A stretch of DNA of 24,612 bases, from the IMG/VR virus record IMGVR_UViG_3300044624_001099, positions 1 to 24,612 of that record; one strand, given 5' to 3'. Position 1 is the stretch's first letter. Each line of letters begins with the position of its first letter. This DNA comes from a virus. Shown in pieces: positions 4,582-23,699 of this stretch. A program made the translations under genes and the position numbers. Below the pieces are notes generated by a model. It made no database searches, was not told the origin of the DNA, and saw only the letters and a program-made list of their open reading frames with translations.

Positions 4582-4610
4582 AAGCCCCCGCGTTCCTCAC
4601 GCGGGGGCTT
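4582..4610. terminator. Bidirectional intrinsic terminator between converging operons
   Basis: A 12-bp perfect GC-rich stem (AAGCCCCCGCGT, 4582-4593, with ACGCGGGGGCTT, 4599-4610) and a 5-nt loop. It is followed by T-rich sequence on the plus strand (ACTTGTTTATTTATTTT) and by TTTACTCTTTC on the minus strand. It lies between the last plus-strand gene (ends 4483) and the 3' end of the RNR gene (4621), so it can stop both. The 4484-4581 spacer also holds a weak 6-bp inverted repeat (AGTAGG/CCTACT, 4500-4525) and no gene. Confidence 0.85.
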
Positions 4611-15220: not shown

Positions 15221-15251
15221 ACAAAAAGGCCCCGTGTGAACACGGGGCCTT
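15221..15251 (-). terminator. Intrinsic terminator after the SpoVS-side operon
   Basis: Minus strand: AAGGCCCCGTG, loop TTCA, CACGGGGCCTT, then TTT running into a T-rich stretch (GTTTTCTTTG). The 11-bp GC-rich stem spans 15226-15251. It lies 15 nt after the stop of the 15267-15614 gene and separates the replication operon from the small-gene block. Confidence 0.88.
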
Positions 15252-18483: not shown

Positions 18484-18804
18484 TTACCAATCTTTCTTCG
18501 TCTCTGTCCATTGTTTTAGGTCTAGACCTTCACGCTTTGCTTTTCGTTTTAAAGCGTTACGTTCTCTATGACTCATGCCACCCCAGATACCGTGCTGCTC
18601 ATCCATAGTGTCCGAATAAAGCAGACACTGCTTACGAACAGGGCACTCAGGCAACCCGTCACGGCCATAGCATACGGCTTTTGAAACCGATGCTATAGAT
18701 TTATATTTAGTTTTATCTCTCGGTGGATACCAAAGCTCTGTGTCTAGTCCCCTACATTTTGCTTCATAACGCCACTCTTCTGCACTTCCTGTGGGTTCGT
18801 ACAA
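18484..18804 (-). CDS. WhiB-family iron-sulfur transcription regulator (variant cysteine spacing)
   Basis: 106 aa if started at TTG 18804, which has AGGAG 5 nt upstream; a GTG 6 nt earlier overlaps that site. WhiB proteins bind a [4Fe-4S] cluster and sigma factor to control transcription in Actinobacteria. Cys17, Cys45, Cys54 and Cys60 are present, with CPVRKQC typical of the family. The second and third cysteines are 8 residues apart instead of the usual CxxC. The GIWGG turn (72-76) and a basic C-terminal helix-tail (RERNALKRKAKRE) complete the family pattern. It overlaps the Hjc-like nuclease gene by 61 nt. Phage WhiBs are known to alter host septation or gene expression; the target here is unknown. 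Confidence 0.88.
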   Translation of the reverse strand: MYEPTGSAEEWRYEAKCRGLDTELWYPPRDKTKYKSIASVSKAVCYGRDGLPECPVRKQCLLYSDTMDEQHGIWGGMSHRERNALKRKAKREGLDLKQWTETKKDW

Positions 18805-19121
18805 GTACACTCCTGAAGGTTCTGGCGCAGTTCAAGAAAGTCATCTTCAGTTAATACAACATAGTTCTCGTTGTTAAGACTAAAGCCTAGGACGGGTGTC
18901 CGACTATCAAGGATTGCTTCCTTAATAATCTTTTCCAGAACTGCCGCTTTGACAGTAAAGGAGGCTTTGCCAGTCCACTTATGTTCAATTAACAAATCGG
19001 TGGACCGCACATCGCCTTTACGACTCCAGAAGGCGCCACTTGCAGCTGTTCGCTGACCGTCGACCTTCTTTGCGAGCCTGTCCTCATGCTTCCTTGATTG
19101 ACGCTGACCTTCACTCTTCAT
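18744..19121 (-). CDS. Hjc-like PD-(D/E)XK Holliday junction resolvase/endonuclease
   Basis: 125 aa. Glu13, Asp37, Asp42, Glu46 and Lys48 lie in EDRLAKK, RKGDVRSTDLL and LIEHKWTG, with positions matching archaeal Hjc (Glu9, Asp33, Glu46, Lys48). The RTAASGAFWSRKGDV run is the signature of phage Hjc-like nucleases. The last 20 residues overlap the WhiB gene and are Cys/Asn-rich, probably not part of the fold. No clear Shine-Dalgarno, so it is likely coupled to recA, whose end it overlaps by 11 nt. It gives this phage a second junction-type nuclease besides the RuvC-like one. Confidence 0.75.
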   Translation of the reverse strand: MKSEGQRQSRKHEDRLAKKVDGQRTAASGAFWSRKGDVRSTDLLIEHKWTGKASFTVKAAVLEKIIKEAILDSRTPVLGFSLNNENYVVLTEDDFLELRQNLQECTCTNPQEVQKSGVMKQNVGD

Positions 19122-20519: not shown

Positions 20520-20988
20520 CAAAATTCTCCATCTCTTTAAAATCTGCAGAAATAACTTCCTTAGTTATCAACCCCAACTTCAAGGCGGATGAAAACGCAC
20601 TTACTAAAGTAGCAACTGCTACAAACTTATACATAGAAATCATTGATTCCATGTCTTCTTTAAGCTCTTCTGCTGCCTCTGGTCTATCTTCTGCTATGTC
20701 TTGCAATTGTATCGTAGTAAGTACCGAGGCACTAATCTCAGCCATTGCTGCGATATATGGCATCAATTCGGTCATCTCGTCTAAACGATCGGCGCTCTCT
20801 TCAACCTCTTTTTCGTCACCTTCAGCGCTTACAGGGTTGAGGCCTACCAAAGATGCTACTTTGTTTGGCTCCATTAGGTCGGTATCGTACAAGAACCATC
20901 TAATCAATGTAGATACGGGCACATCGTTAACTATAGTTTCATACTCAACGTAGTAACCTTTTTTCTTTCTCTTCTTAAACCAACTCAC
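20509..20988 (-). CDS. Conserved actinophage protein next to DNA polymerase
   Basis: 159 aa with a GTG start overlapping the polymerase stop (GTGA) and GAGG upstream. Starts with a basic cluster (MSWFKKRKKKGYY), then VEYETIVNDVPVSTLIRWFLYD, a pattern I associate with a conserved but uncharacterised actinophage family. The C-terminal half is helical with a hydrophobic stretch (FVAVATLVSAFSSAL) that is amphipathic rather than clearly membrane-spanning. Coupling to polA suggests a replication-related role. Confidence 0.55.
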   Translation of the reverse strand: MSWFKKRKKKGYYVEYETIVNDVPVSTLIRWFLYDTDLMEPNKVASLVGLNPVSAEGDEKEVEESADRLDEMTELMPYIAAMAEISASVLTTIQLQDIAEDRPEAAEELKEDMESMISMYKFVAVATLVSAFSSALKLGLITKEVISADFKEMENFDEQ

Positions 20989-22958
20989 TTCGCCTCACCC
21001 CATCTCTGTACAATCTTTACGTCAGCAATTAACGGGACATCCAACAAGTTAATGCCTTCCATAGCTTCTCTAATTGCTTTCTCAGTTTCATCTTGGAGAT
21101 GCTCGGGAGTAAGTGTCACTAACTCATCGTGCACAGTTAGTAGCAACTTAGCCTCCTTAGGAATCATAGCGTGTGCCCGAATCATAGCAAGTTTCATAAT
21201 GTCTGCAGCCGAGCCTTGGATACGTGTGTTGAAAGCTTGGCGCTCAGCACCTGCTCGCAATCCGAAGTCTGAAGAAGCTATATCAGGCAAGTAGCGCTTA
21301 CGTCCCATAAGGGTTGTGACGTACTTCTTAGCCCTAGTAGCAGCTATTACTCTAACCCTATAGGTGTTAACCGAAGGAAATTTAGCCGCAAATCGACCCA
21401 ACAGGTCTTTAGCATCAGTGATAGTACAACCAATTTGTCTAGCAATTTTGTCCGGGCCTACGCCGTAAGCCATAGCCAATACCAAAACCTTGCCCGCTTT
21501 GCGGTCTACGCCCATAGTGTCACCCACGGTTGTATAGATGTCGCCACCGTCTAGATAGTTCTTAATCATAATCGGGTCACGAGACATGGACGCAATAATG
21601 CGTGGCTCAATCTGTGAGTAGTCTGCTACGACTAACTTATACCCCGGTGGGGCATAAAAAAGATTACGAATCTCTTTACCGTGCACGGTGTGCGGAGCGG
21701 GAACGTTCTGCAAGTTAGGATTACGGCTAGAGAACCGGCCAGTCTCAGCACCATGCTGGATAAAATCACAGTGGATTCTGTCGTTAATTAACAGGCTCTC
21801 TTTGTACTCAACCTTTGACTTACCACCAACTGTGCGCACTACATCACCGCCTAGGTAAGGAACAACATAAGTAGTCATCAACTTATTTAAGTCAGCATAC
21901 TCAAGTAAAGCTTTAACTAGTGGGTCTTTCTCTCGATAAGGCTCTAACGCCTCTGAGGATACTGAAAAGTCTGTGTACTCTAAATCCTTACCGGCCTCTT
22001 CGTTCTTACCTCCCTTGCCTGTAAGGATCTTAGGCTTAAGGCCTCTGCCCCCGTCACCCTTAGATGAATAGAGTAAGTACTGCTTCTCTTGGTTGGAGTT
22101 AATGTTAAACACGCGACCAGCCACGCGGTAGATATCGGCACGAGCTTTCTCTACGTCCTCTTCTAACCGTGCGTGTAAAGCGGTGAGCTGTCCTCTGTCA
22201 ATAGGTGCTCCAGTTAACTTCATGCTAACAAGAACCTCAAGGACATCCATCTCGAGCTTCATAATGTTATTAAGGTCGGCTGCATCAAGCTTTGGTATCA
22301 ATGCCTTCCAAAGAAGGAATGTGTAACGAGCGTCAAGGTATGCGTACTTAGCAACTTCTTCAAAGGAGTACTTCTCTACCTCATAGCCTATGCCTTTAAT
22401 CATCTCATAGCCTAGTTCGCGCTTAAGACAATCATCTAAACCGCACTTGTTCTTGTTGCGGTTGTCATAGATAAACGAGGCAATCATCGTGTCAAAGTAA
22501 GGTTGGCATGGAGTCTCTTTGAAGTACTTGGTTACTGACGATAAATCAAAGACTAAGTTGTGCCCGATCTTTAAGATGTCGGGGTTGAACATCAACGGCT
22601 TTAAGGCTTCGAAAACTTCCGCAGGGTATAGCTGTTGAGGTGGTGGCCCAAATGTTTTAACAGCCTTCTTCTTGTCCCTAGAATAATCCGACTCTCTAGC
22701 CGGTAGCCCAGCGAGGACACGTTTCTCCCCTTGTCCAGTAAGCGGAAATGTCTCTTCATTAAATGTGCCATTAGGATGGCCAAGCGGAATGACATCGCCT
22801 CGACCATGCGTAGCCATAGAAATCCAAAGAACTTCATTTACTACTGGTACTCCTCTTCGGTCTCCTACAGTTTCCACGTCAAAAGCAAACGCGTCTTGCT
22901 TCGAGTAATACTCGACTAAATCTTTTAGTTGTTCAGGTGTTGTAATTATATTCATCAT
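20985..22958 (-). CDS. polA: Family A DNA polymerase with 3'-5' exonuclease
   Basis: 657 aa, lacking the 5'-3' exonuclease domain. Exonuclease motifs: DVET (Asp27, Glu29), GHNLVFD (132-138) and YAYLDARYT (Asp209). Polymerase motif A is VVADYSQIEPR (Asp446), motif B (O helix) is RKAGKVLVLAMAYG (486-499, with Arg486, Lys490 and Tyr498), and motif C is TVHDEL (608-613). The position equivalent to E. coli Phe762 is Leu494. Two ATGs in tandem; the second (22955) is better spaced from GGGGAT. A long hairpin that may sequester this ribosome-binding site lies just upstream. It is the main replicative polymerase of this phage. Confidence 0.95.
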   Translation of the reverse strand: MMNIITTPEQLKDLVEYYSKQDAFAFDVETVGDRRGVPVVNEVLWISMATHGRGDVIPLGHPNGTFNEETFPLTGQGEKRVLAGLPARESDYSRDKKKAVKTFGPPPQQLYPAEVFEALKPLMFNPDILKIGHNLVFDLSSVTKYFKETPCQPYFDTMIASFIYDNRNKNKCGLDDCLKRELGYEMIKGIGYEVEKYSFEEVAKYAYLDARYTFLLWKALIPKLDAADLNNIMKLEMDVLEVLVSMKLTGAPIDRGQLTALHARLEEDVEKARADIYRVAGRVFNINSNQEKQYLLYSSKGDGGRGLKPKILTGKGGKNEEAGKDLEYTDFSVSSEALEPYREKDPLVKALLEYADLNKLMTTYVVPYLGGDVVRTVGGKSKVEYKESLLINDRIHCDFIQHGAETGRFSSRNPNLQNVPAPHTVHGKEIRNLFYAPPGYKLVVADYSQIEPRIIASMSRDPIMIKNYLDGGDIYTTVGDTMGVDRKAGKVLVLAMAYGVGPDKIARQIGCTITDAKDLLGRFAAKFPSVNTYRVRVIAATRAKKYVTTLMGRKRYLPDIASSDFGLRAGAERQAFNTRIQGSAADIMKLAMIRAHAMIPKEAKLLLTVHDELVTLTPEHLQDETEKAIREAMEGINLLDVPLIADVKIVQRWGEAK

Positions 22959-22959
22959 T

Positions 22960-23015
22960 ATCCCCGGTTAGGACCGTAGAGCCTAGCAGAGGGGATGGCG
23001 GCTAGGCCCTACGGT
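22960..23015 (-). promoter_or_regulatory. 15-bp hairpin whose loop complements the polymerase ribosome-binding site
   Basis: On the minus strand ACCGTAGGGCCTAGC (23015-23001) pairs with GCTAGGCTCTACGGT (22987-22973), 15 continuous pairs including one G-U. On the plus strand that pair would be an A-C mismatch, so the structure belongs to the transcribed strand. The 13-nt loop CGCCATCCCCTCT contains ATCCCC, perfectly complementary to the GGGGAT Shine-Dalgarno (22965-22960). No T-run follows, so it is not a terminator. Likely a translational control element of polA. Confidence 0.65.
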
Positions 23016-23024
23016 GTTCTGAGT

Positions 23025-23699
23025 TTAGCCTAGTAGTGAGTTTGCAATTTCATCAAGTTCAGCCCAAGTGTGCTCTTTGATTACAGAGCGTTCGTAAGGC
23101 TTCATGTCTGCAATTACTTTCTCAACTTCAGCTTCATCAATCTGCCAGTCCTCCATGAGGTCACGGCCTTTGATTGGGGTTAAGTGATAAACAGTTTGCT
23201 GCATCTTTCCTGTGCGACTTACTGCCCAGTAGTTTTTTGTTAGTGGGCCTGCAGGTGAAAAGTGCGCTGCGTGTAGTGTCTTATAAAGACGTGGAGATGC
23301 AATAAGCATCTGGCGTTGTGGACCACCTGGAGCACTGAGGTTAGCGATTGTAAACGCACGCTTGTCTTCAGGCTTGCTACCAAGCTTTACACATAGAGGA
23401 TCATTAGCGCCAAGCGAAACATATGAACGCTTGCCAACAGTCTTCTGTTGTAGGAAGTGTTGCTTATAGATTGCGAATGGTCCGTTAGGATCGAGGAATT
23501 TAATTACTGAGAATTCACCCTCATTGAACTTGAACTCAGTTGGGAAATCGCCAGAGGCAGCTACTAACTTCTCCGCTGCATCCCAACCTGATTGTACTGC
23601 TGTGCTTGAAGCCTGTGCTGGACGGGCTTCGATTGATGAATCCATGGTGAAGTCATCTGACTCTGGCATGTATTCCATTGTTGTTTTGTCTGTTGACAT
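23025..23699 (-). CDS. Putative single-stranded DNA-binding protein (gp32-like OB fold)
   Basis: 224 aa, AAAGGAT site before the ATG. Residues 1-50 are acidic and Ser/Ala-rich. From residue 57 (FKFNEGEFSVIKFLD...FAIYKQHF) the strand pattern, and the later YWAVSRTGKMQQTVYHLTPIKGRDL block (158-181), resemble gp32-type ssDNA-binding proteins. Those proteins coat DNA and stimulate polymerase. A short C-terminal acidic/hydrophobic end is present but not strongly acidic. The position directly upstream of polA supports the role. The match is by pattern only. Confidence 0.55.
   Translation of the reverse strand: MSTDKTTMEYMPESDDFTMDSSIEARPAQASSTAVQSGWDAAEKLVAASGDFPTEFKFNEGEFSVIKFLDPNGPFAIYKQHFLQQKTVGKRSYVSLGANDPLCVKLGSKPEDKRAFTIANLSAPGGPQRQMLIASPRLYKTLHAAHFSPAGPLTKNYWAVSRTGKMQQTVYHLTPIKGRDLMEDWQIDEAEVEKVIADMKPYERSVIKEHTWAELDEIANSLLG

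Follow-up and report, generated by a model that had tools for sequence, protein, structure and literature searches.

A hairpin kept behind ssb in hundreds of related phage contigs probably limits DNA polymerase output by covering its ribosome landing site

The levels of phage polymerase and single-stranded DNA-binding protein (SSB) are classic cases of translational feedback, and the well-studied RNA examples come from T4-like phages. The operator of T4 gene 43 is an 18-base hairpin with a conserved loop that is bound by gp43, with no evidence of a pseudoknot, and the gene 32 pseudoknot lies ~67 nt ahead of its gene's start, where it nucleates gp32 binding over an A+U-rich ribosome-binding site (RBS) (PMC3014915). 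A 2010 review described the latter as possibly the only viral pseudoknot in translational autoregulation (PMC3014915). Translational H-type pseudoknots that sequester the Shine-Dalgarno (SD) sequence are also described for the preQ1-I (PMC10622847) and SAM/SAH (PMC7367207) riboswitches, in which a hairpin loop pairs with the downstream RBS and coaxial stacking of the stem on the pseudoknot helix is possible.

Here we describe a phage contig (a virus record, 24,612 bases long, called the window below) in which an ssb-like gene and then polA are encoded on the minus strand, with a long hairpin between them. Like the T4/RB69 gene 43 operator, this hairpin sits just upstream of the RBS of a phage DNA polymerase; unlike it, the element has a 15-bp stem, a loop that is an anti-SD, and a polymerase of family A. 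With the T4/T2 gene 32 element it shares an RNA pseudoknot (proposed here), a bearing on the translation of a phage replication gene and the involvement of an SSB gene, but its place is behind ssb, and the SD that it would directly mask belongs to the following gene. The first-pass annotation had drawn a parallel to gp43 and gp32, which we retain as an analogy of role and not of mechanism, since neither is described as loop/SD pairing (PMC3014915). We likewise set aside a gp43-type operator, i.e., a short hairpin without a pseudoknot whose specific conserved loop is bound by the polymerase, because the stem has 15 bp and the loop varies by clade and is mostly anti-SD, and a gene 32-type operator, because the element follows the ssb stop and its SD is GGGG rather than A+U-rich.

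Three features of SD-sequestering pseudoknots were found at this locus, namely loop-SD complementarity, a covarying stem S1 and a linker that reaches across S1 (as an ideal-helix lower bound). Unlike the preQ1-I and SAM/SAH pseudoknots, the phage stem is ~15-16 bp rather than short and free in sequence, there is no conserved ligand pocket, and the element is intergenic between ssb and polA. Neither the element in the window nor that of five other loci matched an Rfam family above the gathering score, the best sub-threshold match being a microRNA model (E 0.11), and we found no description of an ssb-polA hairpin element in the open-access literature. Judged from sequence, the element would be an unreported variant of SD-sequestering pseudoknots.

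The ssb-polA junction in the window

The features of the junction are as follows.

23025..23699, minus strand: ssb-like gene, 224 aa, directly upstream of the hairpin, with its stop TAA at 23027-23025
23016..23024, minus strand: gap ACTCAGAAC of 9 nt from the ssb stop to the stem (median 10 in CCC-loop relatives)
23001..23015, minus strand: 5' arm ACCGTAGGGCCTAGC of the 15-bp stem, from sequence and compensatory change
22988..23000, minus strand: 13-nt loop CGCCATCCCCTCT, from sequence
22991..22996, minus strand: ATCCCC, cis anti-SD and proposed 5' strand of pseudoknot helix S2, exact complement of 22960-22965, with complementarity kept in the family
22973..22987, minus strand: 3' arm GCTAGGCTCTACGGT of the stem, from sequence and compensatory change
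22966..22972, minus strand: linker CCTAACC, 7 nt, proposed loop L3 of an H-type pseudoknot, from sequence and ideal-helix geometry
22960..22965, minus strand: polA SD GGGGAT, proposed 3' strand of S2, with GGGG before polA in relatives
20985..22958, minus strand: polA, family A DNA polymerase with a 3'-5' exonuclease domain (Pfam DNA_pol_A 7e-91, DNA_pol_A_exo1 5e-19)

The anatomy drawn in the first-pass annotation was correct in its coordinates: a 15-bp stem including one G-U pair, a 13-nt loop with ATCCCC, and 7 nt from the stem to GGGGAT, the loop/SD match being exactly 6 nt. Minimum-energy folding, in which the pseudoknot is not scored, gave -28.6 kcal/mol for the 69-nt ssb-polA spacer, and 1 of 200 shuffles was as good (z -3.3). 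The hairpin stem is the longest perfect stem (allowing up to one G-U) on the minus strand of the window, and no second copy of the hairpin occurs elsewhere in the record. Three other strong hairpins lie in the window at 15226-15251, 4582-4610 and 1925-1958; the first, read on the minus strand (15251-15226), is followed by TTTGTTTT and resembles an ordinary terminator.

The polA gene opens with a tandem ATGATG from 22958 (window 22950-22958), and the ORF caller takes 22958. The second ATG (22955-22953) is likely the true start, because relatives begin there and a 94% identical relative (L082) reads CTGATG at the polA start.

The ssb-like protein matched no Pfam or PHROG family; its family gave a profile-profile match of 99.6% to one whose member in Streptomyces phage Alone3 carries the annotation SSB protein. 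Its AlphaFold model was of moderate quality (pLDDT 72.5) and had no PDB match below E 0.001, the weak matches including some ssDNA-binding proteins. A WhiB-like transcription factor encoded at 18484-18810, together with the kinship to Streptomyces phages, suggests that the host is an actinobacterium. A search for prophages or host genomes carrying a close PolA yielded no host, the best genome matches being only 28-36% identical.

Evolution of the stem and its attachment to ssb

IMG/VR was scanned with individual PolA or SSB sequences six times and with an alignment of PolA once, which recovered 460 relative loci with 194 distinct ssb-downstream sequences. These comprise 171 spacers of the window's family with polA adjacent, 1 in which polA has moved, and 22 from a distant group, kin of Streptomyces phages Alone3 and BRock, whose PolA is ~39% identical to that of the window. 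The relatives appear to be mostly freshwater phages. Every ssb-polA spacer read contains a hairpin, also where loop and SD do not match.

The first-pass annotation had proposed to align the spacer of related phages for compensatory changes in the stem, and these proved massive. In 34 diverged sequences all 15 of the 15 stem pairs have changed on both sides, a result with which a 14-sequence subset agrees; 94.7% of stem cells are paired, versus 75.1% in shuffles, and 116 cells changed on both sides, versus 35.6. Stem covariation was 0.739 versus 0.334, and 0 of 500 shuffles reached the observed value. Slid controls are somewhat biased, as the alignments were made by MAFFT with the structure taken from the window, yet the margin is very large (0.739 versus at most 0.251).

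When stems were found per sequence, G-U cells outnumbered A-C cells by 172:2 in the window's family and by 35:1 in the distant group; the stem finder prefers G-U over A-C, so the ratio is too high, although that preference alone would not be expected to produce a difference so large. Because G-U pairs far outnumber A-C, the structure is taken to act as RNA of the coding sense and not as DNA, and the pattern of substitutions argues for a genuine RNA stem on the polA-sense strand. A structure acting as DNA, such as a replication origin or a protein-binding palindrome, would suit a site among replication genes, but it is largely refuted by the 172:2 ratio on the mRNA strand and gives the loop/SD complementarity no obvious role in duplex DNA, so that we regard it as highly improbable.

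The distribution of the hairpin ties it to ssb. It lies directly after the ssb stop in 17 distinct Streptomyces-phage-like sequences in which other genes part ssb from polA; where one or more genes intervene in this group, polA itself has no hairpin. The same holds within the window's own family, where in the L543 group the hairpin stays at ssb and a 276-aa ORF (L543, 1166-1996) separates it from polA. The SSB families of the two groups are connected by profile comparison (99.6%). Because the hairpin stays behind ssb when polA moves, it most simply began as an ssb 3'-end element that was later adopted for polA, the direction of change being taken from the outgroup. The hairpin had previously been presented as tied to polA; its ancestral tie appears instead to be to the ssb stop. 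Many loci (among them L008, L054, L230 and L241) also share a CTAG/CTAGAC-like motif in the 5' flank of the hairpin, downstream of the ssb stop, and it is seen in the Streptomyces-phage-like group as well as in the window's family.

The hairpin might have remained nothing but such a 3'-end element, one that would stabilise the mRNA, mark it for processing or weakly terminate transcription and thereby yield more ssb than downstream product, with the loop/SD match secondary or incidental. Its position after the ssb stop in the 17 sequences and the L543 group agrees with this, as do the U-rich 3' flanks (UUUACUU) of several Streptomyces-phage-like members and the presence of the hairpin in adjacent spacers irrespective of the fit between loop and SD. 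Like intrinsic terminators, it is a GC-rich hairpin soon after a stop codon. It would nevertheless make a poor terminator: at least 5 T in the 8 nt past the stem occur in only 0-13% of representatives, the 8 nt past the window's stem read CCTAACCG with no U-tract, loops are long (median 10-19 nt in pairing clades), and loop/RBS complementarity is conserved in many clades. We therefore rejected an intrinsic terminator, with its U-tract directly after the hairpin and its short loop, for the window, where CCTAACC follows the stem. The broader reading as an ssb 3'-end element alone, which also leaves unexplained the polA-specific SD and the RBS-specific complementarity described below, seems to us rather unlikely.

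Complementarity between the loop and the polA SD

Loop/RBS statistics were computed on 105 representatives that share less than 93% PolA identity. In 67% of them, an uninterrupted run of 5 or more Watson-Crick pairs joins the loop to the 20 nt preceding polA; the corresponding share is 31% for the ssb RBS and 3-10% for segments of the polA coding sequence. The longest Watson-Crick run between loop and polA RBS averaged 4.98, and the loop duplex was -8.1 kcal/mol with the polA RBS, versus -4.0 with the ssb RBS and -1.1/-3.0 with polA coding segments. The loop/SD duplex of the window reached about -11 kcal/mol (RNAduplex, before any pseudoknot penalty).

The partner of the loop is likewise particular to polA. 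GGGG precedes polA in 68% of 72 unique upstreams and is near zero before other conserved genes, barring one (20509) whose upstream is the end of the polA coding sequence, and the ssb SD is AGGA throughout the upstream comparison. Across the window's family the loop mostly contains CCCC and the polA SD is mostly GGGG. In clusters of 80-90% identity, own loop/SD pairs beat swapped pairs (z -3.0 to -5.1), a test in which kinship remains.

A sister clade (L449/L505) departs from CCCC/GGGG on both sides, with a CCUCC loop and a GGAG-type SD, which is the matched change expected if loop and SD pair. The loops of the clade of L449, L478 and L505, 10 of the 105 representatives, contain ACCTCCTTTCT, which we take to be the 3' end of bacterial 16S rRNA; since the letters are the same, the loop of this clade would be a literal cis anti-SD.

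The match is not universal. Clades with ACGUGC, UUGAC and other loops keep the hairpin and have no SD complementarity, and such non-pairing clades often have an AGGA or GGAG SD, i.e., both sides were lost together; the L211/L200-L203 clade retains a C-rich loop with no GGGG SD. In the Streptomyces-phage-like group own loop/SD pairs were no better than swapped or shuffled ones, and among CCC-loop sequences there was no finer covariation, own pairs again being no better than swapped. Loop and SD each change ~10-12 times on the PolA tree, and independent tree pairs gave ~2 same-way changes versus 0.5, which is not significant. The loop/SD pairing put forward in the first-pass annotation is thus supported in part: complementarity is kept in most relatives and is specific to the polA RBS, but several clades are without it and the co-change of independent pairs falls short of significance.

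Pseudoknot geometry and proposed mode of action

In an ideal A-form helix at 6 A per step, with sterics and electrostatics ignored, a linker needs ~7 nt to cross 11-16 bp, because the helix comes round again. The 15-bp stem of the window needs ~7 nt and its linker has 7; about half of the family (median) needs ~2 bp of fraying. The caution that 7 nt are short for a full 15-bp stem, raised in the first-pass annotation, is reduced by this ideal estimate and not removed, and an H-type pseudoknot over the polA SD is possible on this model.

We propose that the ssb-polA mRNA would fold into a long hairpin whose loop serves as a cis-encoded anti-SD. Pairing of ATCCCC with GGGGAT would give an H-type pseudoknot with the 7-nt linker running along the 15-bp stem; once it had formed, the 30S subunit could not use the SD, and the loop would compete with 16S rRNA for it. 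From a hairpin, compensatory changes, RNA strand and RBS-specific complementarity that can be read in the sequences, we infer the pseudoknot, the repression, co-transcription of the two genes and a regulator, such that polA would be translated less than ssb from their shared message. Melting, or binding of a phage protein, would release the polA SD. Sensing of the polymerase, SSB or a ligand, as suggested in the first-pass annotation, is conceivable. The element could be a fixed dosage setting or a switch, with SSB, the polymerase, temperature or the ribosome terminating 10 nt away as possible melters. We judge it fairly likely that a pseudoknot between the hairpin loop and the SD lowers polA translation relative to ssb and that the hairpin is older than this use.

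In a fuller account, the loop of the hairpin downstream of ssb would have come to mimic the anti-SD of 16S rRNA and would trap the polymerase SD in a pseudoknot with a long stem; release by the phage SSB or polymerase would match polymerase output to replication, making the element an unreported RNA switch of a large group of mostly freshwater phages. This whole chain we consider unlikely.

The hundreds of environmental contigs offer a simple, testable element with natural variants in which the loop is matched, mismatched, or parted from polA. Such a series lends itself to tests of dosage control of a replicative polymerase by an RNA loop, and the L543 group is a natural experiment in which hairpin and polA have been separated.

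By analogy with T4 gp43 and gp32 (PMC3014915), the hairpin might instead be a protein operator, where SSB or polymerase binds the stem and a clade-specific loop and represses polA (or ssb), the SD pairing not being the switch itself. Two replication proteins flank the hairpin, and loops are constant within clades whose stems have changed fully (the ACGUGC hexaloop; UAGAUUA-type loops in the Streptomyces-phage-like group). In most relatives, though, the conserved part of the loop is precisely the SD complement, and the SSB model has no confident fold match; an operator of this kind appears quite improbable to us next to sequestration of the SD by the loop.

The hexaloop ACGUGC occurs on very different stems in separate PolA clades (L034, L035, L124, L558, L577 and kin). 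A GCACGT partner is not consistently placed nearby, the SDs of these loci are mostly AGGA-type, and the loop may be bound by a protein.
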